The notes beneath the pieces were generated by a model, which saw nothing but the letters and a program-made list of their open reading frames with translations, was not told where the DNA came from and did not search any database. Made by a program: the position numbers and the translations under genes. Positions 48,380-61,091 of a stretch of 64,000 nucleotides of DNA are shown here, piece after piece. The stretch is from an uncultured Acidobacteriia bacterium (GTDB lineage Bacteria > Acidobacteriota > Terriglobia > Bryobacterales > Bryobacteraceae), in the NCBI GenBank assembly GCA_903923395.1, contig CAIXXM010000089.1, positions 1 to 64,000 on the forward strand, written 5' to 3'. The stretch's first letter is position 1; every line of letters starts with the position of its first letter.

Positions 48380-49702
48380 TTACACCTTCGCGGGATCGGG
48401 ATGAACCCAGCCCTGCCGGTAAGAGCGCCGCAATAACTTGTTGGCTTCCGGGTCTCCCGTGACAACACCCTTCGCCGCATCCCAGGCCAGCGTCCGTCCC
48501 AACTGCATCGACATATTGGCCAGAATACAGCAGGCAGAAGAGATGTAACCCTCTTCGATGTCCGCCACAGGCTTCCCACGTGTTGCAATCTTGTCGAGCA
48601 GGTCCTGCATGTGGGCACGTATGGCCGGAGCAACCTGCTTCTCCAGTCGCGGCTCCACTTTATCGATGGGGTATTGCTCCAACTCCATGGTGACGTCACG
48701 GTGGATCGGGTTGCCGCCGCCCAGCGGGATGAAGTCATAGCTGTTGATGCCGGCCTTCAGCGTCCCCTTGTCTCCATAGAGGGTTGCGCCCCAGGTGTAG
48801 GCGGGGTCCGGCGCGGCGCCAAAACGCCGGTGCTGCCAAACCACTTCGAGATTGTCGAATTCAAACATCGCGGTCTGGGTATCGGCGATGTTATTCGAGC
48901 CACCCTTCAGAACGCGCAAGCCGCCAAAGGAAGAGACGCGCTTCGGCCAGCCCAGGCCCATGAACCAGCGGACCATATCGAACATGTGAATCCCCATGTC
49001 GCCGATGGTGCCGTTACCGTACTCCATATATCTGCGCCAGTTCTTCTGGATTTCGCTGCTGTAGGGCAGGAGTGGCGCGGGGCCGCACCAGGCATTCCAA
49101 TCGAGAGTCGCTGGCACGGGTTCCACCGGTGCGGGAGTCGGCCGGCCGCCGCCATACGAGTAAATCTCCACATGGCCGATGTTGCCGAGCTTGCCATCCT
49201 GCACGATGCGCCGTGCTTCGGCCAAATGCGGTGTGCTGCGGCGCTGCGTGCCCACTTGCACCACACGTTTGTACTTCCGTGCAGCCGCCAGCATCGCCTG
49301 CCCCTCCGCGATATCCACGCAGATGGGCTTCTGCACATAAACATCCGCGCCGGACTTCACCGCCTCAATGAACGGCAACGCGTGCCAGTGGTCCGGGGTG
49401 GCCACCTCCACAATGTCGAGATCCTTCTGGGCGAGCATCTCTTTGTAGTCCGTGAACAGCCGTGGCTTTTTGTGGGAAACCTGCCGCTCCACGGCCCATT
49501 TCGCCGCTTCTTCCAGGTTGGCCTTGTCCACGTCGCACAGCGAAACAATTTCCACGGGAGCAATCTGCACCAGACGGAAAATATCACTCTTGCCGTACCA
49601 GCCGCAGCCGATCAGGCCGACACGCTTCGGTGGATTGTCGAACAAGGGAGAAGCCGCGGCGGCGGAAGCAATACCGGTCTGGAGGAAATGGCGACGGAGC
49701 AT
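48380..49702 (-). CDS. Gfo/Idh/MocA family oxidoreductase (Tat-exported)
   Basis: 440 residues. Leader LRRHFLQTGIASAAAASP, then a Rossmann fold (VGLIGCGWYGKSDIFRL), 'VEVATPDHWHALPFIEAVKSGADVYVQKP' with the catalytic-lysine motif QKP, and a C-terminal alpha/beta dimer domain. The family oxidises or epimerises sugars with NAD(P); exported members are common in Acidobacteria, Bacteroidetes and Planctomycetes and may carry tightly bound cofactor. It heads the minus-strand carbohydrate run. CATAAT lies six bases before its ATG. Confidence 0.92.
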   Translation of the reverse strand: MLRRHFLQTGIASAAAASPLFDNPPKRVGLIGCGWYGKSDIFRLVQIAPVEIVSLCDVDKANLEEAAKWAVERQVSHKKPRLFTDYKEMLAQKDLDIVEVATPDHWHALPFIEAVKSGADVYVQKPICVDIAEGQAMLAAARKYKRVVQVGTQRRSTPHLAEARRIVQDGKLGNIGHVEIYSYGGGRPTPAPVEPVPATLDWNAWCGPAPLLPYSSEIQKNWRRYMEYGNGTIGDMGIHMFDMVRWFMGLGWPKRVSSFGGLRVLKGGSNNIADTQTAMFEFDNLEVVWQHRRFGAAPDPAYTWGATLYGDKGTLKAGINSYDFIPLGGGNPIHRDVTMELEQYPIDKVEPRLEKQVAPAIRAHMQDLLDKIATRGKPVADIEEGYISSACCILANMSMQLGRTLAWDAAKGVVTGDPEANKLLRRSYRQGWVHPDPAKV

Positions 49703-49708
49703 GGGGAA

Positions 49709-49714
49709 ATTATG
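49709..49714 (-). promoter_or_regulatory. Putative -10 hexamer CATAAT of a leaderless oxidoreductase transcript
   Basis: On the minus strand CATAAT (five of six to TATAAT) is followed by TTCCCC and the ATG at 49702, a six-base gap without Shine-Dalgarno. Confidence 0.45.
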
Positions 49715-49809
49715 TCACCGATCACACAGAAGAGAACCGGCCCTGCAATTTTTTTTGGTCCGCGCGAACCCGCAGCCCCGCTTCTACAGGCAAAGGCGGA
49801 CACAACGAC

Positions 49810-50001
49810 ATGAACCTCATCAAAAATTTGACCCTGATTGCCTTCGCGGCAGGTTCGGCTTACGCGGCAGCTTCCAGGCCGGACGCGCCTGCAACAGACC
49901 CGGTTGCCTTCCTCATGCTGGGCTCAGTGCTGATCGGAGTCGCGAAGCTTTGCTTTCGTCACGTGGACGCGGCGGGCCGCCAGACGAACTGGGGCAAGTA
50001 A
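49810..50001 (+). CDS. 63-residue secreted/membrane protein with PEP-CTERM-like C terminus
   Basis: Starts at ATG 49810. A signal peptide (NLITLIAFAAGSAYAA type, residues 1-20) is followed by PDAPATDPVAFLMLGSVLIG, then a basic end with Arg and His. The order short Pro-rich motif, hydrophobic helix, basic tail recalls PEP-CTERM sorting signals, although the PEP box itself is degenerate. The mature protein would be hardly more than the sorting tail. A longer frame running through it into the sigma factor gene is not real. Nine consecutive A bases follow at its stop codon. Confidence 0.5.
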   Translation: MNLIKNLTLIAFAAGSAYAAASRPDAPATDPVAFLMLGSVLIGVAKLCFRHVDAAGRQTNWGK

Positions 50002-50075
50002 AAAAAAATGATCCCTCTATGACCCGCACAACGCTTCCATGTGTAGATCTCAAAAGAAACACCAGGGAACCCTAC

Positions 50076-50696
50076 ATGACTACGCTGTTTGAGAACAGAT
50101 TTGGTACCATCCGAGTCTCAGTGAAACCTTCACCTGAAGACGAAATCAGTGTCCTCCTGGGCCGTGTAGCCGCAGGCGAGCCTGCGGACGACCGGCTCAT
50201 CCATATGGTTCACAGTCACCTGCGGACCATCGCACGCCGCATGATGCGCGCGGAGCGTCAGGGTCACACACTGCAGCCCACAGCACTGGTCAATGAGGCC
50301 TGGCTCAAGCTGAACAAAGGCGAGGAACGGGCCTATGCGGACCGCGAACACTTCTTCAACCTTGCGGCCGCAGCCATGCGTCAAATCCTCACCGATCATG
50401 CGCGGGCAAAACTAACTGAACGCAGAACCATGAATCCGGAAGCCAGACAGCGGCTGCAGGAAGGCCCCGACGTCAACCGCCAGGCTGTCGAAATGATTTC
50501 ACTGGACCAGGCGCTCAAAAAGCTGGAGGAACGCGATCCCCGACTGGCCAAAATCGTGGAGCTGCGCTGCTTCTGTGATCTCAGCGTGGAAGAGGCCGCG
50601 GAGGTGCTGGGAATATCGCCCACCACGGTGAAGCGGGAATGGAAGATCGCGAAGTCTCTGTTGCAGCATGATCTGGAGCGGCCAGCCTCCGCGTAA
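50076..50696 (+). CDS. ECF RNA polymerase sigma factor (acidobacterial/planctomycete type)
   Basis: 206 residues from ATG 50076, selected for the AGGGA ribosome-binding site at 50064-50068; an upstream ATG at 50019 is possible. Sigma region 2 ('LRTIARRMMRAERQGHTLQPTALVNEAWLKL') and region 4 ('VELRCFCDLSVEEAAEVLGISPTTVKREWKIAKSLL') match the ECF group usually found beside Ser/Thr kinases. The receptor-type kinase 26 bases downstream is its likely partner, and the two may set expression of the operon that follows (inference). Confidence 0.92.
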   Translation: MTTLFENRFGTIRVSVKPSPEDEISVLLGRVAAGEPADDRLIHMVHSHLRTIARRMMRAERQGHTLQPTALVNEAWLKLNKGEERAYADREHFFNLAAAAMRQILTDHARAKLTERRTMNPEARQRLQEGPDVNRQAVEMISLDQALKKLEERDPRLAKIVELRCFCDLSVEEAAEVLGISPTTVKREWKIAKSLLQHDLERPASA

Positions 50697-50722
50697 TTTG
50701 AGCGCAGACTGCCGGAGCAAAG

Positions 50723-53221
50723 ATGAGAAGCGTACTCGAAACGGTTGGAGATAAAATTCGCCAGGCAAGGGGACTGCTGGATTCACTGACCTCCTACCGG
50801 GCGAAACGCTCCCCGCTTTCCACAGACGAACGCAGTCAATTTTCCTCCCCCAGCCTCAGTTCCCTCTCTTTGCCCAAAGCACGGAAGCGTGGCAGACCGC
50901 TGGTGGAAACCGGCGACATGCTGGCGGGCAGATTCTGCATCGGTCCGCTGCTTGGCGAAGGGGGCATGGGAACGGTCTACGCCGCCGAAGATACGCTGGT
51001 CGGCTCCATGGTCGCGATCAAAGTCATCCGCCCGGAACTTGTGGGCGATGATGATGCGAGACGAAGGCTGGTGAAGGAACTGCGAACGGCCCGTCTGGTC
51101 ACGCATCCGAACATCTGCCGGCTGTATGACGTGGGGGAATGCTCCGCAACGCGCACAGGCGACGACAATCTGCTGTTCCTCACCATGGAGATGCTGCACG
51201 GTGAGACACTGGCCGAGCGGCTGGGACGCCGTCCGAATCTGACGGAAGCGGAAGCGAAGACCATTGCGCTGCAACTCTGCGATGCCCTCGCGGCACTCCA
51301 CAAGGCCGGTGTGGTGCACCGCGACTTCAAACCGGGCAACGTGATGGTGACCGAAAAGGACGGTGTACTCCATGCCGTCGTGATGGATTTCGGTCTGTCG
51401 CACGGTGGGGACAACGTTCAGGAAACGCGCTCCGGTTCGGTCGGCGGAACCCCTGCTTATATGGCACCAGAACAGGCCCTGGGAGGCACCGTCTCCAAAG
51501 CCTCTGACATATTCCCGCTCGGCATAGTGATCGCCCAAATGGTGACGGGGCTGGGAGTCCAGGCCACGATTGACAGGGATAGCGGCACGCCCCGCCTCAG
51601 CGTGGCAGCGCAGGCCATTTTGCGGCACGTTGGCCTGCAGTGGCTGAAGATCGTCACCCGCTGCCTGGAGGTCAATCCGGCCAGGCGCTATGGTTCCATC
51701 GAACAGGTGCAGGCTGCGCTGCAGGCCAAACCTTCCGGAAATCCAGTCCAGGCAAAATACGTGTTTGCGGCGGCTTTGGCTGTGGCATTGGTGCCGGCCT
51801 CTTGGGTGGTGTGGAATTACTTCCGTGCGGGCCCTGGTTCCGTGGCTGTGCTTCCCTTTGTAAATGCCACGGGAGATGCATCGCTCGACTATGCCGCCGA
51901 GGGAATAGCAGAGTCCCTGTATCGAAGTCTGGGTCGGTCACCCAAGTTAACCGTGGCAGCGTGGTCGAAGTCACAGACCTTTAAGAATCCCCGACCAGAT
52001 CTCGCAGCGGCCGGAAGCTCGATGCATGTGGATTCCATCGTGACGGGAAAACTCCGGAAAGACGGCCGGGATCTTCGCCTCGATGTGGAGTTGCGCGAGG
52101 CCGCCACAGGCAATGTCTTATTTTTCCGTTCCTATCAGCGCCCCGCCGGACAACTGCTGGCGCTGGATCAAAATCTACTTACTGATTTAACTCCCCAGTT
52201 CGACCGGACAGTGCGCGCGCAGCTTTCGGCAGGCACTTACAAACCGAATCCGCAAGCCTATGAGCTTTGCCTGCGCGCTTACCACGAGATGAGGGGCCGC
52301 AACACCTCTGACGTGTTACAAAATGCCGTGGCACTCTTCCGCCAGGCCATCGATCTGGACCCTGGATACAGCCTGCCCCACAGCGGACTGGCTGATGCGT
52401 ATTCGAGAATGATCAACTACAGTTCGCAGCCCCCCGTTGTCCTGGTACAGCAGGCGAAGGCGGAAGCACAGCGGGCCGTGGAACTGGACCAGAACTCCGC
52501 CGAGGCGCAGGCATCTTACGGAAACGCGGTGATCACGAGTGATTTCGATTGGATTGCAGGGGAGCAGGCTTTCCGCCGCGCGATCGCACTCAAGCCCAAG
52601 ATCGGCTACTTCCATACCTGGTATGCGATGCAACTCCTGACCCCGTTGAAGCGGTATGAGGAAGCGCTGATTGAGATCAATGAAGCCATCCGGCTGGACC
52701 CGGAAGATACATTCAACCCTGTTGCCAAGGGAACGATTCTGTTTTGGTGCCGGCGGTATGAAGAGTCGCTGAGCGTACTTCGCTCCGCTTCACCCAAATT
52801 CCCCCAGGACTTTGTGATTTCCATGCGCGCCAATGATCTGATGATGCTGGGCAGGACGCAGGATGCGGTGAACCTGGCGGCAGACCCCAAGTTCCAAAAG
52901 CCAGGTTCCCCATACGACAGATTCTTCTACTACCGGCTGGCGATTCTGGCAGAAGCGATGGCGCGCCAGGGCAGGCTGGATGAGGCGGAAGCCATCAACA
53001 AACGCCTGGAAGCGGAGGCGCTGGGCACGAACATCAACGGCTGTAACTTGGCCGCTATCCAGATAGCACTTCATCACAACTCCATTGCATTGGAGAAGCT
53101 TCGCCAGTGTTATGAAAGCAGAGATGTAAATTACCGCTACATTGGCGTGGACAGCAGTTATGATGAACTGCGGTCCGACGCAGGGTTTGCCGCATTGATG
53201 CAGTTGGCAGGCCTCAGGTAG
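50723..53221 (+). CDS. Transmembrane Ser/Thr protein kinase with TolB/FlgO-like and TPR sensor region
   Basis: 832 residues. The kinase domain (about 70-330) has the Gly loop LLGEGGMGTVY, catalytic K100, HRD at 199-201, N206, DFG at 222-224 and APE at 248-250, all intact. One transmembrane helix lies at about 345-367. Outside, a FlgO/TolB-like domain ('VLPFVNATGDASLDYAAEGIAESLYRSL', about 374-500) is followed by several TPRs (about 510-800). This is a common acidobacterial receptor-kinase layout, encoded with an ECF sigma factor. It ends 41 bases before the putative RiPP precursor gene, with no terminator visible between them. Confidence 0.94.
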   Translation: MRSVLETVGDKIRQARGLLDSLTSYRAKRSPLSTDERSQFSSPSLSSLSLPKARKRGRPLVETGDMLAGRFCIGPLLGEGGMGTVYAAEDTLVGSMVAIKVIRPELVGDDDARRRLVKELRTARLVTHPNICRLYDVGECSATRTGDDNLLFLTMEMLHGETLAERLGRRPNLTEAEAKTIALQLCDALAALHKAGVVHRDFKPGNVMVTEKDGVLHAVVMDFGLSHGGDNVQETRSGSVGGTPAYMAPEQALGGTVSKASDIFPLGIVIAQMVTGLGVQATIDRDSGTPRLSVAAQAILRHVGLQWLKIVTRCLEVNPARRYGSIEQVQAALQAKPSGNPVQAKYVFAAALAVALVPASWVVWNYFRAGPGSVAVLPFVNATGDASLDYAAEGIAESLYRSLGRSPKLTVAAWSKSQTFKNPRPDLAAAGSSMHVDSIVTGKLRKDGRDLRLDVELREAATGNVLFFRSYQRPAGQLLALDQNLLTDLTPQFDRTVRAQLSAGTYKPNPQAYELCLRAYHEMRGRNTSDVLQNAVALFRQAIDLDPGYSLPHSGLADAYSRMINYSSQPPVVLVQQAKAEAQRAVELDQNSAEAQASYGNAVITSDFDWIAGEQAFRRAIALKPKIGYFHTWYAMQLLTPLKRYEEALIEINEAIRLDPEDTFNPVAKGTILFWCRRYEESLSVLRSASPKFPQDFVISMRANDLMMLGRTQDAVNLAADPKFQKPGSPYDRFFYYRLAILAEAMARQGRLDEAEAINKRLEAEALGTNINGCNLAAIQIALHHNSIALEKLRQCYESRDVNYRYIGVDSSYDELRSDAGFAALMQLAGLR

Positions 53222-53262
53222 CGGTTCGCGGAGTACGAAAAACACGAAAGGTTGAATGAACA

Positions 53263-53535
53263 ATGATTGACACCAAGATACTCGATGCCACAGGCCTGTC
53301 TGAGCACGACGCAGCCGACCTGATCAACAAATTCCAGGCCTTTGCCGCCTCGCTGAACCCGGCTCAGCTCGCAGCCTTCGCGACAACCCAGCCTGCCGCC
53401 GCAGAGGTTGCCAAGGCTGTTTCCGCCGAATGTACCGCGGAAGACCTCAACGCCTTCATTTCCAAGCGTTGCGAAGGTCTCGGCTCACCCATCGTGATGG
53501 GGGTTCCAATCGAAGTCACCGATGAAGTGAAGTAA
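53263..53535 (+). CDS. Putative ribosomal peptide (RiPP) precursor of the YcaO/TfuA operon
   Basis: 90 residues, ATG 53263 with GAAAGG upstream. The first 67 residues are Ala-rich, amphipathic and acidic, like a leader peptide ('SEHDAADLINKFQAFAASLNP'). The C-terminal 21 residues change character: Gly, Pro, Ile and Val-rich (CEGLGSPIVMGVPIEV) and ending TDEVK. Cys57 and Cys70 are the only cysteines. Placed directly before ycaO and tfuA and separated from them by a hairpin, it is the natural candidate substrate of the modification enzymes. No precursor family was recognised; the start of the core is a guess (after residue 68 or 69). Confidence 0.65.
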   Translation: MIDTKILDATGLSEHDAADLINKFQAFAASLNPAQLAAFATTQPAAAEVAKAVSAECTAEDLNAFISKRCEGLGSPIVMGVPIEVTDEVK

Positions 53536-53551
53536 CTGCAAGGCTGTATCC

Positions 53552-53579
53552 GCGGCGGAGACTGGCCAGTCTCCGCCGC
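53552..53579 (+). promoter_or_regulatory. Perfect 14-bp inverted repeat between precursor and ycaO
   Basis: GCGGCGGAGACTGG (53552-53565) is followed directly by its exact complement (53566-53579). As RNA it would form a 12-bp stem with a four-base loop. No U-run follows, so it is not a full terminator. It could slow transcription or protect the precursor mRNA 3' end, giving more precursor than enzyme. Confidence 0.7.
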
Positions 53580-53603
53580 CTCAAATTCACTGGTTATCAG
53601 CGC

Positions 53604-54932
53604 TTGCGATTTCAGCATACTGCCCTCAAAATTTCGGGAACCAGAACGGTGCCTTCGGAAGAAACCCGGCGACGGGCGATGCCGTTGGCGGCGCGCTTTG
53701 GTGTCACCCGGGTCACTGATATTACCGGCTTGGACAGGGTCGGTATTCCTGTCTCCAGCGCCATCGTCCCGCGCTCGAATGACGCCATTGGCGTTTATAA
53801 CGGCAAGGGGTTGCGGCAGGAAGACGCGATGACCGGTGCCTTGATGGAAGCGATTGAGCGGCAGGCTGCCATTCGGGCACGTCCACCCATGATCACCGCT
53901 GCCACGGCAGAACTCCGCAAACACGAAAACATCCTTGAGCCCGAACGCCTGCTGCCAAGACTTGGCGACAATTGGAGTGACCAAAGGCGCTATGAATGGG
54001 TGGAGGGGTTTGATCTCGTCACCGAACAAGCCGTTTGGGTTCCTGCCGGTGCTGCCGGACTGCGCTGGGCCCACTTAGGCGGCGGTTCCCCTTACCGCTA
54101 TAACACCTCCCATGGACTGGCTTCCGGCAATACCCTCGAAGAAGCCGTGTCACAGGCCCTGTGCGAATGGGTGGAGCGCGATTCCTGGACCCTTGCCGAT
54201 TTGGCGGGGTATTGGAAGCCCAGAGCCATTGCGGAAAAGCTTGCTGGTTGTAACCCTGAGAATGATTTCCTCGATGATCTGGAGTTCGCACCCTCCATTG
54301 ACCTGGACGGACTAACTGGCCCGGTTGAAGTCCTGCTGCGGCGTTTCCGGCGCGCGGGTCTGGAGCCAATGGTGCGCGATATTACGAGCGACACCTCAAT
54401 CCCCGCGGTGGTTGCGGGAGTGACCGAAGATGATGTTCCGGGCTTTCCGCAGGTGCATCTCGGTGTCGGCTGCCACCCTGACCTGCGGGTTGCGGTGTCG
54501 CGGGCATTGACAGAGGTGGCACAGTCGCGTTGCGTGGATATTCAGGGCGTTCGCGAAGATCTCTCAGATGCCGAGGGGTTCGGCGCGCTGGGCTCTACCG
54601 GAGTTTCACACCACACCAGACGGGCAAAGTCGATTGATCGAAGGCGCTGGCAGATCGTCCCTTCGGTGCGGCGCCGTTCCTGGCGGGAGATCCCCTCGTT
54701 CCAAAGTAACGACATTATGCAGGAGCTGCGCTGGATGATTGCGCAATTGCAGCGGGTTGGAATCCGTCAAATTGTGGCGGTGGATCTTTCTCCCGCAGAT
54801 ACAGGACTTTCGACCGTCCGCGTGCTGGTTCCGGGGCTCGAAGTATGGGTGCTGGATCATGGCCGTTTGGGGGAAAGAGCTGCGGCCTTTTGGCGCAAAC
54901 TCATGGAACCCGCGGAGGCAAGTTATGCCTGA
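53604..54932 (+). CDS. ycaO: YcaO-domain ATP-dependent peptide backbone-modifying enzyme
   Basis: 442 residues from TTG 53604; a GTG at 53649 is the alternative and there is no ATG. The N-terminal 'RFGVTRVTDITGLDRVGIPVSSAIVP' is a standard YcaO opening. ATP-Mg motifs follow: 'QEDAMTGALMEAIERQA', 'GLASGNTLEEAVSQALCEWVERDSW' and the C-terminal 'DLRVAVSRALTEVAQSR'. YcaO enzymes activate a peptide amide with ATP for azoline, amidine or, with TfuA, thioamide formation. No E1-like cyclodehydratase partner is present, so azole synthesis is less likely than thioamidation. The last eight bases overlap tfuA. Confidence 0.93.
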   Translation: MRFQHTALKISGTRTVPSEETRRRAMPLAARFGVTRVTDITGLDRVGIPVSSAIVPRSNDAIGVYNGKGLRQEDAMTGALMEAIERQAAIRARPPMITAATAELRKHENILEPERLLPRLGDNWSDQRRYEWVEGFDLVTEQAVWVPAGAAGLRWAHLGGGSPYRYNTSHGLASGNTLEEAVSQALCEWVERDSWTLADLAGYWKPRAIAEKLAGCNPENDFLDDLEFAPSIDLDGLTGPVEVLLRRFRRAGLEPMVRDITSDTSIPAVVAGVTEDDVPGFPQVHLGVGCHPDLRVAVSRALTEVAQSRCVDIQGVREDLSDAEGFGALGSTGVSHHTRRAKSIDRRRWQIVPSVRRRSWREIPSFQSNDIMQELRWMIAQLQRVGIRQIVAVDLSPADTGLSTVRVLVPGLEVWVLDHGRLGERAAAFWRKLMEPAEASYA

Positions 54933-55617
54933 TTCCACGGTGATCTTTCTGGGTCCAAGCCTGCCGCTTGCAGAAGCGCGGGCCATACTGCCGGACGCAC
55001 TGTATCTGCCGCCGGTCCGGCGCGGCTCCCTGGCACAGTTTCAACAGAATCCACCAGCGGTGATCGGGATTATTGACGGTTCATTTTTTCAGACACTGTC
55101 GTTGTCGCCAATGGAGATTATTCCGTTCCTGGACCAGGGCGTCCGTATCTTTGGATCGTCAAGCATGGGAGCCATGCGGGCCGTGGAACTGCGTTTCGAA
55201 GGCATGACGGGAATCGGGCAGATTTATGAAAGATTCGCCAGCGGAGAGTTCTCCGCTGATGATGATGTTGCGATTACTTTCCATTCAGAGACCTTGCGTC
55301 CGCTCTCTGAGCCGCTGGCGAACTTACATATCGCGCTCCTGCAGGCGGAGGCAGCCGGCCAGATCAGTCTCCGCGAACGCCGCCGGATCACGGCCCTGCT
55401 GCGCGGCATCTACTTCCCCAACCGCACACTCCCTGCCCTGTTTCTAACTGCCGCCCGGGTCCTGGGTGCGGAACGGGCCAGTTATTTCCGAACCTGGTGG
55501 CAACAATATGCACCAGACGCGAAGGCAGAAGATGCCCGTGCTCTGCTGCGGGCCATCGCCAAACTTTCCACTTCTCTACAAACGAACGAGGAACCACTGC
55601 ATGCAAAAGCTATCTGA
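54925..55617 (+). CDS. tfuA: TfuA-like protein, thioamidation partner of YcaO
   Basis: 230 residues, ATG 54925 with GGAGG six bases upstream. The family core is evident: 'VIFLGPSLPLAEARAILPDALYLPPVRRGSL', 'VIGIIDGSFFQTLSLSPMEIIPFLDQGVRIFGSSSMGAMRAVEL' and 'GIGQIYERFASGEFSADDDVAI'. TfuA proteins cooperate with YcaO in making thioamides, as shown for methyl-coenzyme M reductase thioglycine in methanogens and thioviridamide-type peptides, probably by delivering sulfur. The 3' end overlaps the oxidase gene by 17 bases. Confidence 0.9.
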   Translation: MPDSTVIFLGPSLPLAEARAILPDALYLPPVRRGSLAQFQQNPPAVIGIIDGSFFQTLSLSPMEIIPFLDQGVRIFGSSSMGAMRAVELRFEGMTGIGQIYERFASGEFSADDDVAITFHSETLRPLSEPLANLHIALLQAEAAGQISLRERRRITALLRGIYFPNRTLPALFLTAARVLGAERASYFRTWWQQYAPDAKAEDARALLRAIAKLSTSLQTNEEPLHAKAI

Positions 55618-58576
55618 CAAGAACCAAGCTGCCGCTTCCTGCGCGGACAATCCAATCCAGTGCCTCGTCGACATGTGGACGCAGATGCTGCAGTGGAGCA
55701 TCAACAGCGGCCAGTGCCCCGCACAGCGCACCGGCTTTCAAAAGCCGCACGGCATTGTGGGCGGTAAGTTCAAGATACTTCCCAATCTGCCGGAACATCT
55801 GCGCGTGGGTATCTTCGCTGGAACGGAATACCCTGCCTGGGTTCGATTCTCCTCAGACACGACCACAGGCAGTAACGACTATAAGACCATCCTCGGCGCA
55901 GGGATCAAACTGTTTGACGTGCCAGGCACTAAGATCTTTGGCCAGCCCGGTGCAACCACGTTTGACTTTGCACTGCAGAACAGTGATGTCTTCTTTGTGA
56001 ATAACGCGCTCGAAATGTGCAACTTCACGCAAGCCGCGATGTCTGGAGGACTGAATAACTTCTTCGAGTCCAATCCGGCCTCGAAGAAGATCTTTGATGA
56101 AATGAACTCCAAGCCGGTCGCCAGTGTTCTGACCACGGATTATTGGAGTGGAGTGGCCTTCGCCTTCGGGCCGGACCACTATGTCAAATACAAACTCGAA
56201 CCTTACTTCAAGCCGCAACCGCTCAAGCAACAACCCGCGGACCCCGGCTATCTCGCAGCGGACCTTGCTGCCCGCCTGCAGGTGGGAGAAGCCGGATTCC
56301 GGTTCATGCTGCAGTTCCAGACCCACCCGGAGACCATGCCTCTCGATGCCGCCATGGTGCCCTGGAGCGAGAAAGCCAGCACCCCGGTTCATGTCGCGGA
56401 CTTGATTCTCTTCCAGCAGGACATGAACGCCCGCGGCCATGCTGCCTATGGAGAAAACCTTTCTCTGAATATCTGGCGCGTCACCGAACCACATACACCA
56501 CAAGGTTCACTTGCACTCGCGCGCAGAGAGGTTTACTCGGCCTCAGCCAAGCTCCGCCGCGATATGAACGGTGTGCCGACAGGGGAACCGGACCATGCCA
56601 AACCCTACGCCGAAACGGCACCGGTCGCCGACCGCGTCATCGTCCGGGCAGCCATCCATCCCGGCATTGGAATCGCAAGAATCGGAGACAGCACGGAAGA
56701 ATACTTTGTGGGTCCGCAAACGATCACTCCCGATCTGCAACCGGCAAATTACTACCGTGACCCCGGCTATGCGCTCAAAAGACAGGCTGCGGAATTCCGG
56801 ATCTATGGTTATAACGCAGCGGGCAAAGTTGTTAGTGAACTTACCGCGGACAATGCCTACATCCAGTGGACCGCCCACTTAGCGAACAAGAAGGCCTCCT
56901 GGTACCGGTTCATTGTTCCCATGGATATCCCGCAAGCCATCAAGGTCAACGCGCCGCTGCGGAATCCGGAGGTGCAGGACCGGGCCTCTCTCATCATTGA
57001 CCCCGGCCCGCGAACTATTTCCGGGAAGTGCATGAGCGGCGCGGATTATCACTTTGACAGCGGCACCTTCCAGGGCATTCCTGTGCCGCTGGGTGAACTG
57101 CGCACGGATAATGCAGGGCACTTACTCGTACTCGGCGGCAGAGGCAACTCAGGGTCACCCAACGGCACGCCCGTATTCAACCCTGCCGATACGGAAAGCT
57201 TCGCCAACGCGGATGGCTGGTATGACGATATCTCGGATGGTCCTGTCAGTGCGCAGGTTTCCATCAATGGCAAAGTTATTCCCGTGGAACCCGCGTGGGT
57301 GGTGGTGGGACCTCCCAACTATGCACCGAATGTACTTGCCTGGCGCACAGCTTATGACCTGCTTACCGATAACTACACAAGAGCAGGCGTGCTGCCAGTG
57401 CCGGAGCAGGTATCCTTCACGCAAGATGTGTTGCCATTGCTGGCCCGGCTAACCAATCTGCAGTGGGTGAACCGCGGGTTTGCCGCGATGTTCGGCTCCG
57501 GCGCACCCATGGACTTCAACAGTCCGGACCTGCTGAAGAAACTCTCCGCGACACCGAACCCAACCAGTCACGATGACCCGTATAAAGCCCTTCGCTTTGC
57601 GATCCTCAACTCCTTCCGCCTGGGACTCACGGAGTTAAATCAGCCGCAGGCCTGGCCGTGGCTCTTCGGCAATGCCTATGAAGTAACTACTGCGCGCCAT
57701 CCCGGAGCCGGATATTACCCGATGAGCAGCATCGGGCTTTCGATGTTGAACTTCGAGCAGATGCAAAAGTGGGCGAATGGCGACTTCATCAATGACTGGT
57801 CGGCCGATGCTGCCAGTCCGAAGACAATCAGCCAGGTTCCGCTTGCAGACCAGCCGGCGATGCTGGATCGCGCAGCTCTGGAATACTGCGCCGCCGGTGC
57901 GTTCCTGCCTGGCGTGGAAATGCCCTGGATCATCGGTACAGACATGATCTACTCGAGTCCTTACCGGTTCCGGCAGGCAGAGCAGGACACTGCCGGACCG
58001 TTGCCGCCCACGCTGGATATCCGGGAGACTTATGCGCTGCGCGGGCCACTGCATCATGGCTTCCGGCCAGGCGATGTCACACGCTGGATGGCAGTCCCCT
58101 GGCAGACAGACACCGCCTTTTGCCGCTCGGGCTACAGCCCCAACTTCAACCTCTACACCCCGGCCTTTTGGCCTGCGAGGGTGCCGAATCAGGTCTTGAC
58201 AGAATCCGATTACAAGATCGTGGTGGACACCACACAGCCCATGGAAGTAAGAATGTCCGCATTCCAGCGGCGCTCCAGCTGGTTCCGCAGTCTGACGCCC
58301 ACGGGCCCGGGCGGCGACCCGATCTCCCAGGAGACGCTGCAAATGGTGGCTGGTTTCAGCGCCATGGGGCTGATCACGCCGATGCCGGGTGTCCCTGGTG
58401 AGGATATTTTTCCAGATCCAATCTTTGTGGAATCCCTCGATCCGGACAAGCTGAAGGAACTGGAAGCACAAGCGAACCTTTACGGCGATGCGCCGCACTC
58501 CAATCTGCAACTCGCTGGATGGCGGAGCCAGGAGGAACTGGAAGCAGCGCGCGCTATTCACGCCCGCAACTTATGA
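55601..58576 (+). CDS. Fusion of catalase-like domain with LodA/GoxA-type CTQ-dependent amine/amino-acid oxidase
   Basis: 991 residues from ATG 55601 (GAGG nine bases upstream). Residues 45-330 are a catalase-family fold: H50 in KPHGIVGGKF is the probable distal His, with 'LPEHLRVGIFAGTEYPAWVRFSS', 'GAGIKLFDVPG' and 'PQGSLALARREVYSASAKLRRDMNG'. Residues 345-991 are LodA-like: 'VRAAIHPGIGIARIGDSTEEYFVGP', C763 in ALEYCAAGAFLPGVEMPW, and W829 (or W834) in GDVTRWMAVPWQTD. The C763-W829 spacing of 66 is close to that of the cysteine-tryptophylquinone residues of LodA (516/581). LodA makes H2O2 from lysine and GoxA from glycine. The attached catalase domain could destroy or use that peroxide. No signal peptide. 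Substrate unknown. Confidence 0.88.
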   Translation: MQKLSDKNQAAASCADNPIQCLVDMWTQMLQWSINSGQCPAQRTGFQKPHGIVGGKFKILPNLPEHLRVGIFAGTEYPAWVRFSSDTTTGSNDYKTILGAGIKLFDVPGTKIFGQPGATTFDFALQNSDVFFVNNALEMCNFTQAAMSGGLNNFFESNPASKKIFDEMNSKPVASVLTTDYWSGVAFAFGPDHYVKYKLEPYFKPQPLKQQPADPGYLAADLAARLQVGEAGFRFMLQFQTHPETMPLDAAMVPWSEKASTPVHVADLILFQQDMNARGHAAYGENLSLNIWRVTEPHTPQGSLALARREVYSASAKLRRDMNGVPTGEPDHAKPYAETAPVADRVIVRAAIHPGIGIARIGDSTEEYFVGPQTITPDLQPANYYRDPGYALKRQAAEFRIYGYNAAGKVVSELTADNAYIQWTAHLANKKASWYRFIVPMDIPQAIKVNAPLRNPEVQDRASLIIDPGPRTISGKCMSGADYHFDSGTFQGIPVPLGELRTDNAGHLLVLGGRGNSGSPNGTPVFNPADTESFANADGWYDDISDGPVSAQVSINGKVIPVEPAWVVVGPPNYAPNVLAWRTAYDLLTDNYTRAGVLPVPEQVSFTQDVLPLLARLTNLQWVNRGFAAMFGSGAPMDFNSPDLLKKLSATPNPTSHDDPYKALRFAILNSFRLGLTELNQPQAWPWLFGNAYEVTTARHPGAGYYPMSSIGLSMLNFEQMQKWANGDFINDWSADAASPKTISQVPLADQPAMLDRAALEYCAAGAFLPGVEMPWIIGTDMIYSSPYRFRQAEQDTAGPLPPTLDIRETYALRGPLHHGFRPGDVTRWMAVPWQTDTAFCRSGYSPNFNLYTPAFWPARVPNQVLTESDYKIVVDTTQPMEVRMSAFQRRSSWFRSLTPTGPGGDPISQETLQMVAGFSAMGLITPMPGVPGEDIFPDPIFVESLDPDKLKELEAQANLYGDAPHSNLQLAGWRSQEELEAARAIHARNL

Positions 58577-59604
58577 TGCATTGCGATGCACTGGTGGCCG
58601 GTGCGGGACCAGCGGGATCGGCTGCGGCGAAAGTACTGGCGGACGCCGGCTGGAAGGTGCTGCTGGCCAACCCGGCGGGAAAGCGTGTACGAAAAATCGG
58701 AGAGTCCTTGCCGGCTGCGGGGTTACGCCTGCTGCAGCACCTGAAAATGGCAGGGGCCGGCTTCGAATCGGTCCACCGCAGAATCAGCGGCAATCTCTCC
58801 TGTTGGGGATCCGCGCAGCTCGATGCGGAAGATTTTCTGCGCTCGCCGGATGGTGCCGGATGGCGGTTGGATCGTGATGCCTTCGATGCGTCCTTGCGCC
58901 AAGCGGCGTTCGGAGCTGGCGTTGTCCCCAGGGAAGCAGCGGTGCAGAGTGCAGTGTTGGAACAGGGGCGCTGGCAGATCACCCTGGACGACGCGACGCA
59001 GGTTACAGCCCGTTGGTTGTTGGATGCGACAGGCCGCGGCAGCAGACTGAGTGGCATCCGGCAACGCGAATCGGCCCTTGTGGCACTCTGCGGGTATGGG
59101 GAAGCGGCGGTGCCCGGCTTCGACCGCACGTTTGTGGAAGCGGTCCGGGAAGGCTGGTGGTATGGCGCGGTGCTGCCCGATGGGCGGGCCGTTCTCGCTC
59201 TTTACGTGCGTCCAGAAGACGTGAAATCTGCGCAGGAAAACTGGCATGGCCTGTTGGCGGCAGCACTCCACCTGCATCGCTTCTTCCACGTGCCCAGCTT
59301 CGCCAAGCCGGATTGCACGCTGGATGCGGGCTCTGGCAGACTGGCTGCACTCACCGGGGAGAAATGCATCACCATGGGAGATGCCGCCATGACGTTTGAC
59401 CCGCTCTCTTCGCAGGGTGTTCAAACGGCGATCTATTCCGGGATGCGCGCGGCACAGGTGATATTGACCGGCGACCCGGCCTCCTACGAACGGGAATTCA
59501 CCGAACTTCGGGCGCTTTATCGGAAGAGGCTGGAAGCTTACTACCTTCGCGAAACCCGCTGGCCGGAAGCACCCTTCTGGAAGCAGTTCACTTCCGGTGG
59601 ATGA
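58573..59604 (+). CDS. LodB-like FAD-dependent oxidoreductase (quinone cofactor maturation)
   Basis: 343 residues; ATG 58573 overlaps the oxidase stop (ATGA). FAD site 'DALVAGAGPAGSAAAKVLADAGWKVLL', 'GESLPAAGLRLLQHL' and 'GDAAMTFDPLSSQGVQTAIYSG' place it in the tryptophan-halogenase/LodB flavoprotein group. LodB-type proteins are needed to form the cysteine-tryptophylquinone of LodA, so strict adjacency supports the CTQ assignment upstream. It lacks an obvious halogenase WxWxIP motif. Its last 17 bases overlap the convergent TIR gene. Confidence 0.88.
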   Translation: MMHCDALVAGAGPAGSAAAKVLADAGWKVLLANPAGKRVRKIGESLPAAGLRLLQHLKMAGAGFESVHRRISGNLSCWGSAQLDAEDFLRSPDGAGWRLDRDAFDASLRQAAFGAGVVPREAAVQSAVLEQGRWQITLDDATQVTARWLLDATGRGSRLSGIRQRESALVALCGYGEAAVPGFDRTFVEAVREGWWYGAVLPDGRAVLALYVRPEDVKSAQENWHGLLAAALHLHRFFHVPSFAKPDCTLDAGSGRLAALTGEKCITMGDAAMTFDPLSSQGVQTAIYSGMRAAQVILTGDPASYEREFTELRALYRKRLEAYYLRETRWPEAPFWKQFTSGG

Positions 59605-60118
59605 TTGCGTGCAGACGCGCCAGACCCGTGTTCCAGTCCGGGAACATGTCTAAATATTGGGTTTCCCGCTGAATGCGCGCGGGCATGGGACATTCGTCCA
59701 GCCGCAAGGGGACCAGGAACACGTCATCGAGAGGCATCTTCTTCGCGCAATCGAGCGCAAAGCGGACCTCGGTTTGAAAGCCGCCCCGCTTTCTCACGGA
59801 GTTGGTGGAGAAGCAGGCGACGAAGTAATCGCAGCCGGCAATGGCTTCTTCGATGCGCCGCGGCCAGTTTTGTCCCGGCAGCAGCTTGTGGCGGTCCATC
59901 CAGGGCGAAAATCCCAACCATCGAAGATCGAAGTACAGCCGCTCCGCTGCCTCCAGATCTTCGATGGCGTAGGCGATGAAAACACGGGGAGCGTTGCCCC
60001 CGTGGAACTGTATTTGACCGAGGGGGTTCTTTGAGAACACACCCAGCCCGTCGACTTCGACCCAGCCGTGGCGGTCGAGCGCTTCCAGCACCAGCGTGCT
60101 GAGCTCTTCAACGGTCAT
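59588..60118 (-). CDS. TIR-domain protein with short HU-like N-terminal segment
   Basis: 176 residues. From about residue 45 it is a TIR domain: RVFIAYAIEDLEAAERLYFDL, 'GFSPWMDRHKLLPGQNWPRRIEEAI', 'DYFVACFSTNSVRKRGGFQTEVRFAL' with E117 as the probable NADase glutamate. The first 40 residues ('LSTLVLEALDRHGWVEVDGLGVFSKNPLG') resemble the beta-arm half of an HU/IHF fold. Bacterial TIR proteins often deplete NAD+ or make signalling nucleotides in antiphage defence. The start overlaps the HU-like gene by 11 bases, implying one two-gene unit. Confidence 0.87.
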   Translation of the reverse strand: MTVEELSTLVLEALDRHGWVEVDGLGVFSKNPLGQIQFHGGNAPRVFIAYAIEDLEAAERLYFDLRWLGFSPWMDRHKLLPGQNWPRRIEEAIAGCDYFVACFSTNSVRKRGGFQTEVRFALDCAKKMPLDDVFLVPLRLDECPMPARIQRETQYLDMFPDWNTGLARLHAIIHRK

Positions 60119-60302
60119 TGCGGTCCGGCCTCAGTATCCACTTCTCACCCGGCTCGATGGTGCCAATACCGGGAAGTCTCGCGGGCTTCCCGTGGCGCAG
60201 CGCCCGGAGCAGACGGCTGACGGTGCGATCAATTTGATCAGCGGCGTCGCCAGCCGGAGTGCCGTGCTGCTTTGCGAGTTTGTGAGCAAGAACGTGCTTC
60301 AT
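60108..60302 (-). CDS. HU/IHF-like small DNA-binding protein, partner of TIR protein
   Basis: 64 residues from ATG 60302; ATG 60305 is equally possible. 'KHVLAHKLAKQHGTPAGDAADQIDRTVSRLLRALRHGKPARLPGIGTIEPG' follows the HU pattern of two helices then 'G...LPGIG.F', but it lacks the long DNA-binding arm, being shorter than HU (90). Coupled to the TIR gene, which starts with a similar motif, it may act as a sensor or DNA adaptor for the TIR effector (inference). Confidence 0.7.
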   Translation of the reverse strand: MKHVLAHKLAKQHGTPAGDAADQIDRTVSRLLRALRHGKPARLPGIGTIEPGEKWILRPDRNDR

Positions 60303-60446
60303 CATCTGCCTGAACACTAGCACGCGGAGAAAACGGCACTACCTGCAACATATTGATTCTATTGGAAAATATCTGCGTGACCGCGCGGCCCGCCCGCTAC
60401 AAAGCCCAGCGCCCTACGGAAATCTGCGTACTTTCCGCACCGTCGA

Positions 60447-61091
60447 ATGCCCGACTTGGCTCAACCCTTTTTTGCGGACCTCCAAGCGGGCCTTTCCGGG
60501 GATGCTGCCCCTTTGCATTCGGCTTACGCTTACCTTGACCGCTACTTTCCAACGCAAAACAAAAGGACCTCAGTAATGGACGCTCTGGCTCTTAAACGGA
60601 CCGTATTCGGATTGGACCCCGATCCTGTGATCGAGACCCTGGAAAATCTGCTTCGCGAAGAAGAAGCAGCCTCGCCTGCCTCCCGGTTTGCAGATGCCCT
60701 CCGCGCTGCGGTGCGTGTCAGAATGCAACCGCTGCGCAGGGCACACAATGATTCGCGGGCGGCCATTGCGCCCTACCGTCTGCGGCGCGCGAAGCAGTAT
60801 TTGGAAGACAACCTCTGCCAGGAAATCCGTTTAGAGGATATGGCGGCTGCGGCGGGTTTAAGTCCATATCACTTTTGCAGACAGTTCAAACAGGCCACTG
60901 GCGTAACGCCTCTGCGGTATGTGCTGGAAAGGCGCATCGACCGCGCGAAACAGCTGATTTTGGATACGGAGACGCCGCTGGTGGACCTTTCCCTGCTTCT
61001 CGGCTTTTCGAGTCAGAGCCACTTCACGGTGATCTTCCGCAAACTCACGGGACAAACACCGCGCCGGTACCGGGAACTTTGCAGGCAGTGA
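60447..61091 (+). CDS. AraC-family transcriptional regulator
   Basis: 214 residues from ATG 60447; ATG 60576 would also leave a complete DNA-binding domain. The C-terminal 100 residues carry the double helix-turn-helix: 'KQYLEDNLCQEIRLEDMAAAAGLSPYHFCRQFKQATGVTPLRYVLERRIDRAKQLIL' and 'LSLLLGFSSQSHFTVIFRKLTGQTPRRYRE'. The N-terminal 110 residues are short and unrecognised, with no cupin motif. Possible targets are the neighbouring TIR or formate dehydrogenase genes, but no site can be assigned. Confidence 0.9.
   Translation: MPDLAQPFFADLQAGLSGDAAPLHSAYAYLDRYFPTQNKRTSVMDALALKRTVFGLDPDPVIETLENLLREEEAASPASRFADALRAAVRVRMQPLRRAHNDSRAAIAPYRLRRAKQYLEDNLCQEIRLEDMAAAAGLSPYHFCRQFKQATGVTPLRYVLERRIDRAKQLILDTETPLVDLSLLLGFSSQSHFTVIFRKLTGQTPRRYRELCRQ

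Follow-up and report, generated by a model that had tools for sequence, protein, structure and literature searches.

Pairs of YcaO and TfuA proteins form thioamides (PMC5589413, PMC8120280), and in methanogens such a pair is required for the thioglycine of McrA (PMC5589413). In the TfuA/YcaO clusters of the thioviridamide and thiovarsolin kind, as presented in PMC6511847 and PMC8120280, the two genes are adjacent and a short variable peptide is encoded beside them. In LodA, C516 and W581 are the residues of cysteine tryptophylquinone (CTQ), and Table 3 of the same paper lists 21 catalase-LodA fusions, all of group III and none characterised as of 2015 (PMC4417212). QhpG, the peptidyl-tryptophan dihydroxylase of QHNDH (PDB ID: 7ctq; PMC7876137), is a solved relative of the LodB-like flavoprotein described below.

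The window analysed here, a stretch of 64,000 nucleotides from the genome of a soil acidobacterium (6.15 Mb in 169 contigs), joins a YcaO/TfuA pair with a LodA/LodB-like pair. It shares the adjacent YcaO and TfuA genes and the short variable peptide with the thioviridamide/thiovarsolin kind, but differs from those clusters, as the two papers present them, in an upstream receptor-like kinase, an appended CTQ oxidase, a precursor family that has no Pfam or NCBIfam model, and an operon in which no exporter or peptidase is recognised. With the McrA pair of methanogens, as described in PMC5589413, the locus has the best NCBIfam models and the overlapping ycaO-tfuA arrangement in common; however, its scores lie below the equivalog cut-offs, the organism is a bacterium, and a peptide gene adjoins the pair. 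The oxidase resembles the fusions of PMC4417212 Table 3 in domain order, in the LodB gene behind it, in the Cys/Trp pair and in size (991 residues against 963-1072), a likeness drawn from these features, yet it sits in a YcaO/TfuA operon. Because that table already lists such proteins, the catalase-LodA fusion itself is not new. According to the initial annotation, no described system joins LodA with YcaO/TfuA, and none was found in our literature search either. The search, with supplements outside its scope, also gave no paper that had a kinase-peptide-YcaO-TfuA cassette as its subject by title; the cassette may already be among the 613 cluster families of PMC8120280, where Acidobacteria are mentioned once in the text available.

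Organisation of the locus

All genes of the unit lie on the plus strand. It opens with a gene for a Ser/Thr protein kinase with TPR repeats (50723-53221; Pkinase PF00069, 4e-41, and TPR models), which ends 41 bases upstream of a 90-codon ORF (53263-53535) for the putative RiPP precursor. The following genes encode YcaO (53604-54932, TTG start; PF02624, 4e-65), TfuA (54925-55617; PF07812, 1e-33), a 991-residue fusion of a catalase-like and a LodA/GoxA-type domain (55601-58576) and a LodB/GoxB-like flavoprotein maturase that adjoins the LodA-type gene (58573-59604). The initial annotation had given overlaps of 8, 17 and 4 bases between YcaO and TfuA, TfuA and the oxidase, and the oxidase and the LodB-like gene, which the ORF coordinates confirm, and each of the families it had named (YcaO, TfuA, a CTQ oxidase with a catalase-like domain, LodB-like) is supported by sequence matches. 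Its unit of five genes is real as to genes and overlaps, but left out the kinase/TPR gene upstream that belongs to the conserved unit. For overlapping genes on the same strand, each with a match to a known family, a chance pattern is ruled out.

The sequence AGGA lies 9-12 bases 5' of the LodA ATG, within the 3' end of TfuA. A scan of 49700-60400 for sigma-70-like promoters returned a single site where 2.7 were expected; it lies on the minus strand, so no internal promoter was detected on the plus strand. The same region holds nine terminator-like sites against 10.0 expected, no excess over shuffles. Since neither an internal promoter nor an excess of terminators was seen, a single transcription unit is plausible. 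The 68-base gap between precursor and YcaO contains a GC-rich inverted repeat of 12 pairs (53552-53579) and folds at -30.4 kcal/mol, a value reached by one of 500 mononucleotide shuffles run on the window sequence alone. The repeat is possibly an attenuator or an mRNA stabiliser. Similarly low energies were obtained for the gaps of two other cassettes (L007, -33.5; L065, -28.9) and not for most of the others, and a hairpin at this position is therefore not established as a trait of the family. Rfam gave zero matches in 49000-61000.

The recurring cassette and its peptide

TfuA is rare in the phylum. It was found in 3 of 61 relatives and 5 of 396 phylum genomes, in 12 of 257 genomes of the window's order, in 20 of 399 of its class and in 2 of 169 of another class; these draws overlap and combine to 29 positive genomes with 32 TfuA places. 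A YcaO scan of named genomes gave five loci, two of which duplicate contigs of G466 and G468 as judged by length, for a total of 35 places including the window. The order kinase/TPR, small ORF, YcaO, TfuA is present at 12 of the 35, all in Acidobacteriota (the window, L005, L006, L007, L008, L009, L014, L017, L065, L117, L119 and L121), and in all 12 the kinase/TPR homologue lies directly 5' of the small ORF. A YcaO tree with 27 rows, from which eight of the 35 places are absent (L072 and L129 had no YcaO match; L068, L069, L118, L123, L128 and L146, each with a match, were left out), unites the 12 cassettes in one clade against the 15 others, with support 100/99. The window YcaO groups with L014, from the same genus, and L005, again with support 100/99; both of these cassettes are without LodA. 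Behind TfuA, a mechanical call in eight other cassettes placed the next ORF on the opposite strand in six; in the remaining two, L009 and L065, it shares the strand of TfuA. An ECF sigma gene upstream was considered as a further member and rejected, as matches occurred in only three of eight cassettes tested and at inconsistent positions: immediately after TfuA in L009, about 2.6 kb beyond TfuA on the other strand in L008, and upstream of the kinase, not adjoining it, in L017.

Kinase genes with TPR repeats also lie upstream of the more distant YcaO/TfuA pairs of L122, L124 and L125, at which the homologous peptide was not found. Because kinases precede distant pairs that have no recognisable peptide of the family, the association with a kinase may extend beyond the cassette. 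At another YcaO/TfuA pair, a 79-residue ORF lies 5' of the pair (L123:2534-2773), and we take it to resemble a Nif11-type leader peptide.

Nine of the small ORFs were aligned, and an HMM of these, searched against 25 other TfuA loci in six frames, added three more (E up to 0.01), all in the gap between kinase and YcaO. Mean pairwise identity among the 12 peptides is 0.32 in the leader against 0.15 in the tail, and Gly, Pro and Cys are more frequent in the tail (0.155, 0.119 and 0.026) than in the leader (0.040, 0.033 and 0.001); most tails contain a short hydrophobic run, as judged by eye. An AlphaFold model of the window peptide, computed with five homologues, predicts five helices up to residue 69 (block mean pLDDT 79-86), followed by a disordered tail (mean pLDDT 51 and 37). 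This boundary, taken from the predicted model, divides the window peptide into a leader of about residues 1-69 and a variable tail of residues 70-90. The predicted anatomy, a conserved helical leader with a variable disordered tail, is that of RiPP precursors, and from these sequence features the 90-residue ORF is likely to be one. It had initially been annotated as a putative precursor, with an alignment of small upstream ORFs proposed as a check; the alignment produced a 12-member family with a shared, conserved leader and variable tails, in keeping with that proposal. Modification of the tail is suggested by the presence of YcaO and TfuA.

With a leader ending at residue 69, the window tail would start CEGLGSP. 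Its GVP motif is also found in the congener L014, which lacks LodA, its C-terminal Lys is not conserved across the 12 precursors, and no sequence feature was found in the window peptide that goes with the presence of the oxidase. None of nine precursors scanned matched a Pfam or NCBIfam family above cut-off. A copper-uptake-associated NCBIfam family reached E 0.011 and 15.7 bits, against a cut-off of 50, in two of the nine, and was taken as chance. A fold search with the precursor model gave no match (best E 2.4).

For both YcaO and TfuA the top-scoring NCBIfam models are those of McrA thioamidation, which places YcaO nearest to the McrA-glycine type. Neither reaches the equivalog cut-off, as YcaO scores 255 bits with TIGR03266 (cut-off 365) and TfuA 200 bits with NF033432 (cut-off 235). 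The solved relatives are 6pe3 and 6peu (MJ1094) for YcaO, with 6pe3 at 1.8e-43, and 6xp8 for TfuA at 8e-34. A unique TfuA tail was considered as a scar of insertion and rejected as not diagnostic, because tail lengths vary in several relatives.

The oxidase pair and its occurrence

The LodA/GoxA-type domain (56639-58576) matches LodA_N (PF17990, 6e-78) and LodA_C (PF18417, 5e-33), both above curated cut-offs. By score it is nearer to GoxA than to LodA, with 335 bits for the glycine-oxidase model (cut-off 750) and 180 bits for the lysine-oxidase model (cut-off 600), both below cut-off; the A4 profile, built from four fusions of which two share a genus, gave 1.9e-58 with GoxA and 2.2e-55 with LodA. 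C841 aligns with C516 of LodA. Because the LodA alignment did not reach W581, the CTQ tryptophan was assigned through GoxA: W857 aligns within the WWAANLP stretch of GoxA and is by inference the CTQ Trp. D837, C841 and W857 do not vary among the four aligned fusions, two of which come from one genus.

The catalase-like N-terminal domain (55601-56638, about residues 1-346) rests on its match to 3e4w (phmmer 4.8e-6; A4 profile 5e-8), as the first ~345 residues matched no Pfam model, catalase included, at E 0.1. The database label of 3e4w is that of an uncharacterised protein, which we take to be a haem-containing catalase-related protein. H50, R308 and Y312 are invariant in the same four fusions, two from one genus, and residues such as these presumably form the haem site of catalases.

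The LodB-like protein has the GoxB maturase NF038174 as its best model (6e-59; 200 bits, cut-off 400), and also matches LodB NF038171 (5e-50, below cut-off) and the peptidyl tryptophan dihydroxylase 7ctq (6e-16). QhpG is its second-best NCBIfam model; the window protein differs in fitting the GoxB model better and in having a LodA-type oxidase, not QHNDH, as its partner.

The full-length oxidase and LodB were used as tblastn queries against the DNA fetched around the other 34 TfuA places, and no LodA or LodB match was obtained at E up to 0.01 (up to 0.001 in one set). The sequence available downstream of TfuA ends early at L125 (~0.2 kb), L007 (0.4 kb), L120 (0.6 kb) and L146 (1.5 kb). The 34 places include the 11 other cassettes (0/11 in the DNA fetched), and a conserved order of the five genes is rejected on these grounds. 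The functional link had been made to depend beforehand on conservation of the joined gene order, and a search for co-occurrence of TfuA, YcaO and LodA had been proposed; the union was seen in the window alone, and no second joined locus appeared among the TfuA or LodA places examined.

From the oxidase side, parts of the fusion have matches (E up to 1e-20) in 38 of 257 genomes of the window's order, at 42 places listed, of which 12 have no fetched locus (one such genome was examined). No match to YcaO, TfuA or the precursor was obtained in 52 acidobacterial oxidase- or catalase-like loci with flanks of mostly 1.5 kb, among which L021/L073, L022/L074, L037/L039 and L040/L041 are overlapping pairs. 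Among 53 acidobacterial LodA- or catalase-like loci, 21 hold the catalase-like part only and 32 the LodA part only. As none holds both domains, the window fusion stands alone among the 53 loci fetched. In the congener locus L145 (G018) the LodA and LodB genes are divergent and not in the same direction, and in L073 (G306:C252) the LodA-like match falls in an open frame of 1845 codons, possibly a very large fusion.

Outside Acidobacteriota, the search for LodA-linked YcaO/TfuA covered plasmid records alone. Catalase-LodA with LodB occurs as a stand-alone pair on alphaproteobacterial plasmids of Rhizobium and Azospirillum, with identity reaching 48% across 98% of the protein, and 6 of 135 LodA-like plasmid records have one place that covers at least 80% of the fusion. 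No YcaO or TfuA was found near the plasmid catalase-LodA-LodB genes up to ~9 kb on each side; YcaO, TfuA and the precursor were likewise absent from nine plasmid loci, L073, L074 and L145, and neither YcaO nor TfuA is named in the annotated surroundings of four plasmid records that contain the fusion whole or in pieces. A comparison of 60 of the 135 LodA-like records with the best 25 and a spread of 60 of 353 TfuA records gave at least one in common, with the two places ~795 kb apart among the matches listed. On two Sinorhizobium plasmids (L045, L047) the catalase-LodA genes match solely as a number of separate fragments and appear to be broken.

Each module, the RiPP cassette and the oxidase pair, thus occurs without the other. 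Because the sister cassettes L014 and L005 are without LodA, the pair is most simply read, from the YcaO grouping, as a gain on the window's branch. A foreign codon composition of the oxidase gene was not seen: GC at codon positions 2 and 3 resembles that of its neighbours, so that its composition gives no sign of a recent foreign origin. On the minus strand, a TIR-domain gene (59588-60118) converges on LodB, the two sharing 17 bases, and has upstream of it a small gene (60108-60323, minus strand) that is the same in seven congener loci. Of the 19 genomes of the genus, 16 carry the TIR gene, the window's own among them, with best matches of 57-64% identity in the others, and the two genes are a TIR pair of genus level. 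No parts of the block were found in the surroundings of the TIR gene in the seven congeners.

Interpretation of the joined operon

The locus is probably an acidobacterial operon for a thioamidated RiPP, associated with a kinase, into which a separate and self-sufficient oxidase pair has been captured. We infer its chemistry, the role of the kinase and the co-regulation as follows. The receptor-like kinase would couple the operon to a signal, and the helical leader of the 90-residue peptide would present its tail, which is short and hydrophobic and contains Gly and Pro. YcaO, dependent on ATP, and TfuA would exchange oxygen for sulfur at one or more backbone amides of the tail. The LodB-like flavoprotein would hydroxylate a Trp of the LodA-like protein to give CTQ, the GoxA-like oxidase would deaminate a free amino acid or amine, and the catalase-related domain would use up the resulting peroxide. 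Shared transcription and translational coupling may place the oxidase under the RiPP signal, and direct action of the oxidase on the peptide would not be required. The overlaps and the missing internal promoter on the plus strand agree with a functional link no less than with capture, and a single occurrence cannot separate the two. The recurring cassette makes available a family of precursors on which bacterial thioamidation can be tested, with leader and tail clearly distinguished. It also provides a natural experiment, with one cassette that has the oxidase and eleven relatives that do not; therefore any extra modification could be assigned by comparison.

The oxidase could instead be a tailoring enzyme of the RiPP that, once the leader is removed, oxidises the thioamidated peptide at its free N-terminal amine or its C-terminal Lys to give a carbonyl. 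Its place in a single overlapping gene unit with YcaO and TfuA, the AGGA inside the TfuA gene and the Gly near the start of the tail are consistent with this, and the GoxA-like scores make an alpha-amine a plausible target. Yet with LodA and LodB missing from the DNA fetched at all other TfuA places, the same type of oxidase present elsewhere with no YcaO/TfuA nearby, and the tail GVP motif shared with a LodA-less congener, such a role appears possible but unlikely. The initial proposal that Lys is the oxidised residue loses ground in particular, as the terminal Lys is unconserved in the 12 precursors and the glycine-oxidase score exceeds that for lysine oxidase (335 vs 180 bits); lysine is accordingly weakened as a target. 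The full hybrid pathway, in which a LodB-matured CTQ quinoprotein deaminates a thioamidated ribosomal peptide while the peroxide is removed or used by the haem domain fused to it, seems quite unlikely. If true, a single peptide would carry both a thioamide and a new carbonyl, and a quinoprotein would act as a RiPP tailoring enzyme, for which no precedent was found in the literature search.

The small ORF itself might be a helical partner of YcaO/TfuA or of the kinase, with another protein as the target of thioamidation, like McrA in archaea. Residues 1-69 are predicted to form a folded five-helix unit, and the top NCBIfam models of YcaO and TfuA belong to the McrA type, in which a protein is modified. 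The Pfam and NCBIfam scan of the operon genes recognised neither a transporter nor a leader peptidase; either might lie at another locus, and a secreted RiPP whose operon lacks both is unusual. The position of the small ORF directly before YcaO in 12 loci and its less conserved, Gly/Pro/Cys-richer and predictedly disordered tail argue against this role, which we regard as improbable. A thioamide in the oxidase or at its CTQ site, another of the initial suggestions, draws on adjacency only, while YcaO/TfuA cassettes exist without LodA and LodA fusions exist with no YcaO/TfuA nearby; we give this suggestion almost no credence. The release of peroxide by amino acid oxidases is described as making them antimicrobial (PMC4417212). 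A peroxide-producing antimicrobial device, also put forward initially, is nonetheless very improbable, as the oxidase bears its own putative catalase-related domain, which speaks against peroxide release as its purpose.

Dyp-type peroxidase genes were observed near LodA genes on plasmids of Mycetohabitans and Bradyrhizobium (L059, L060). They may represent another way of dealing with that peroxide.
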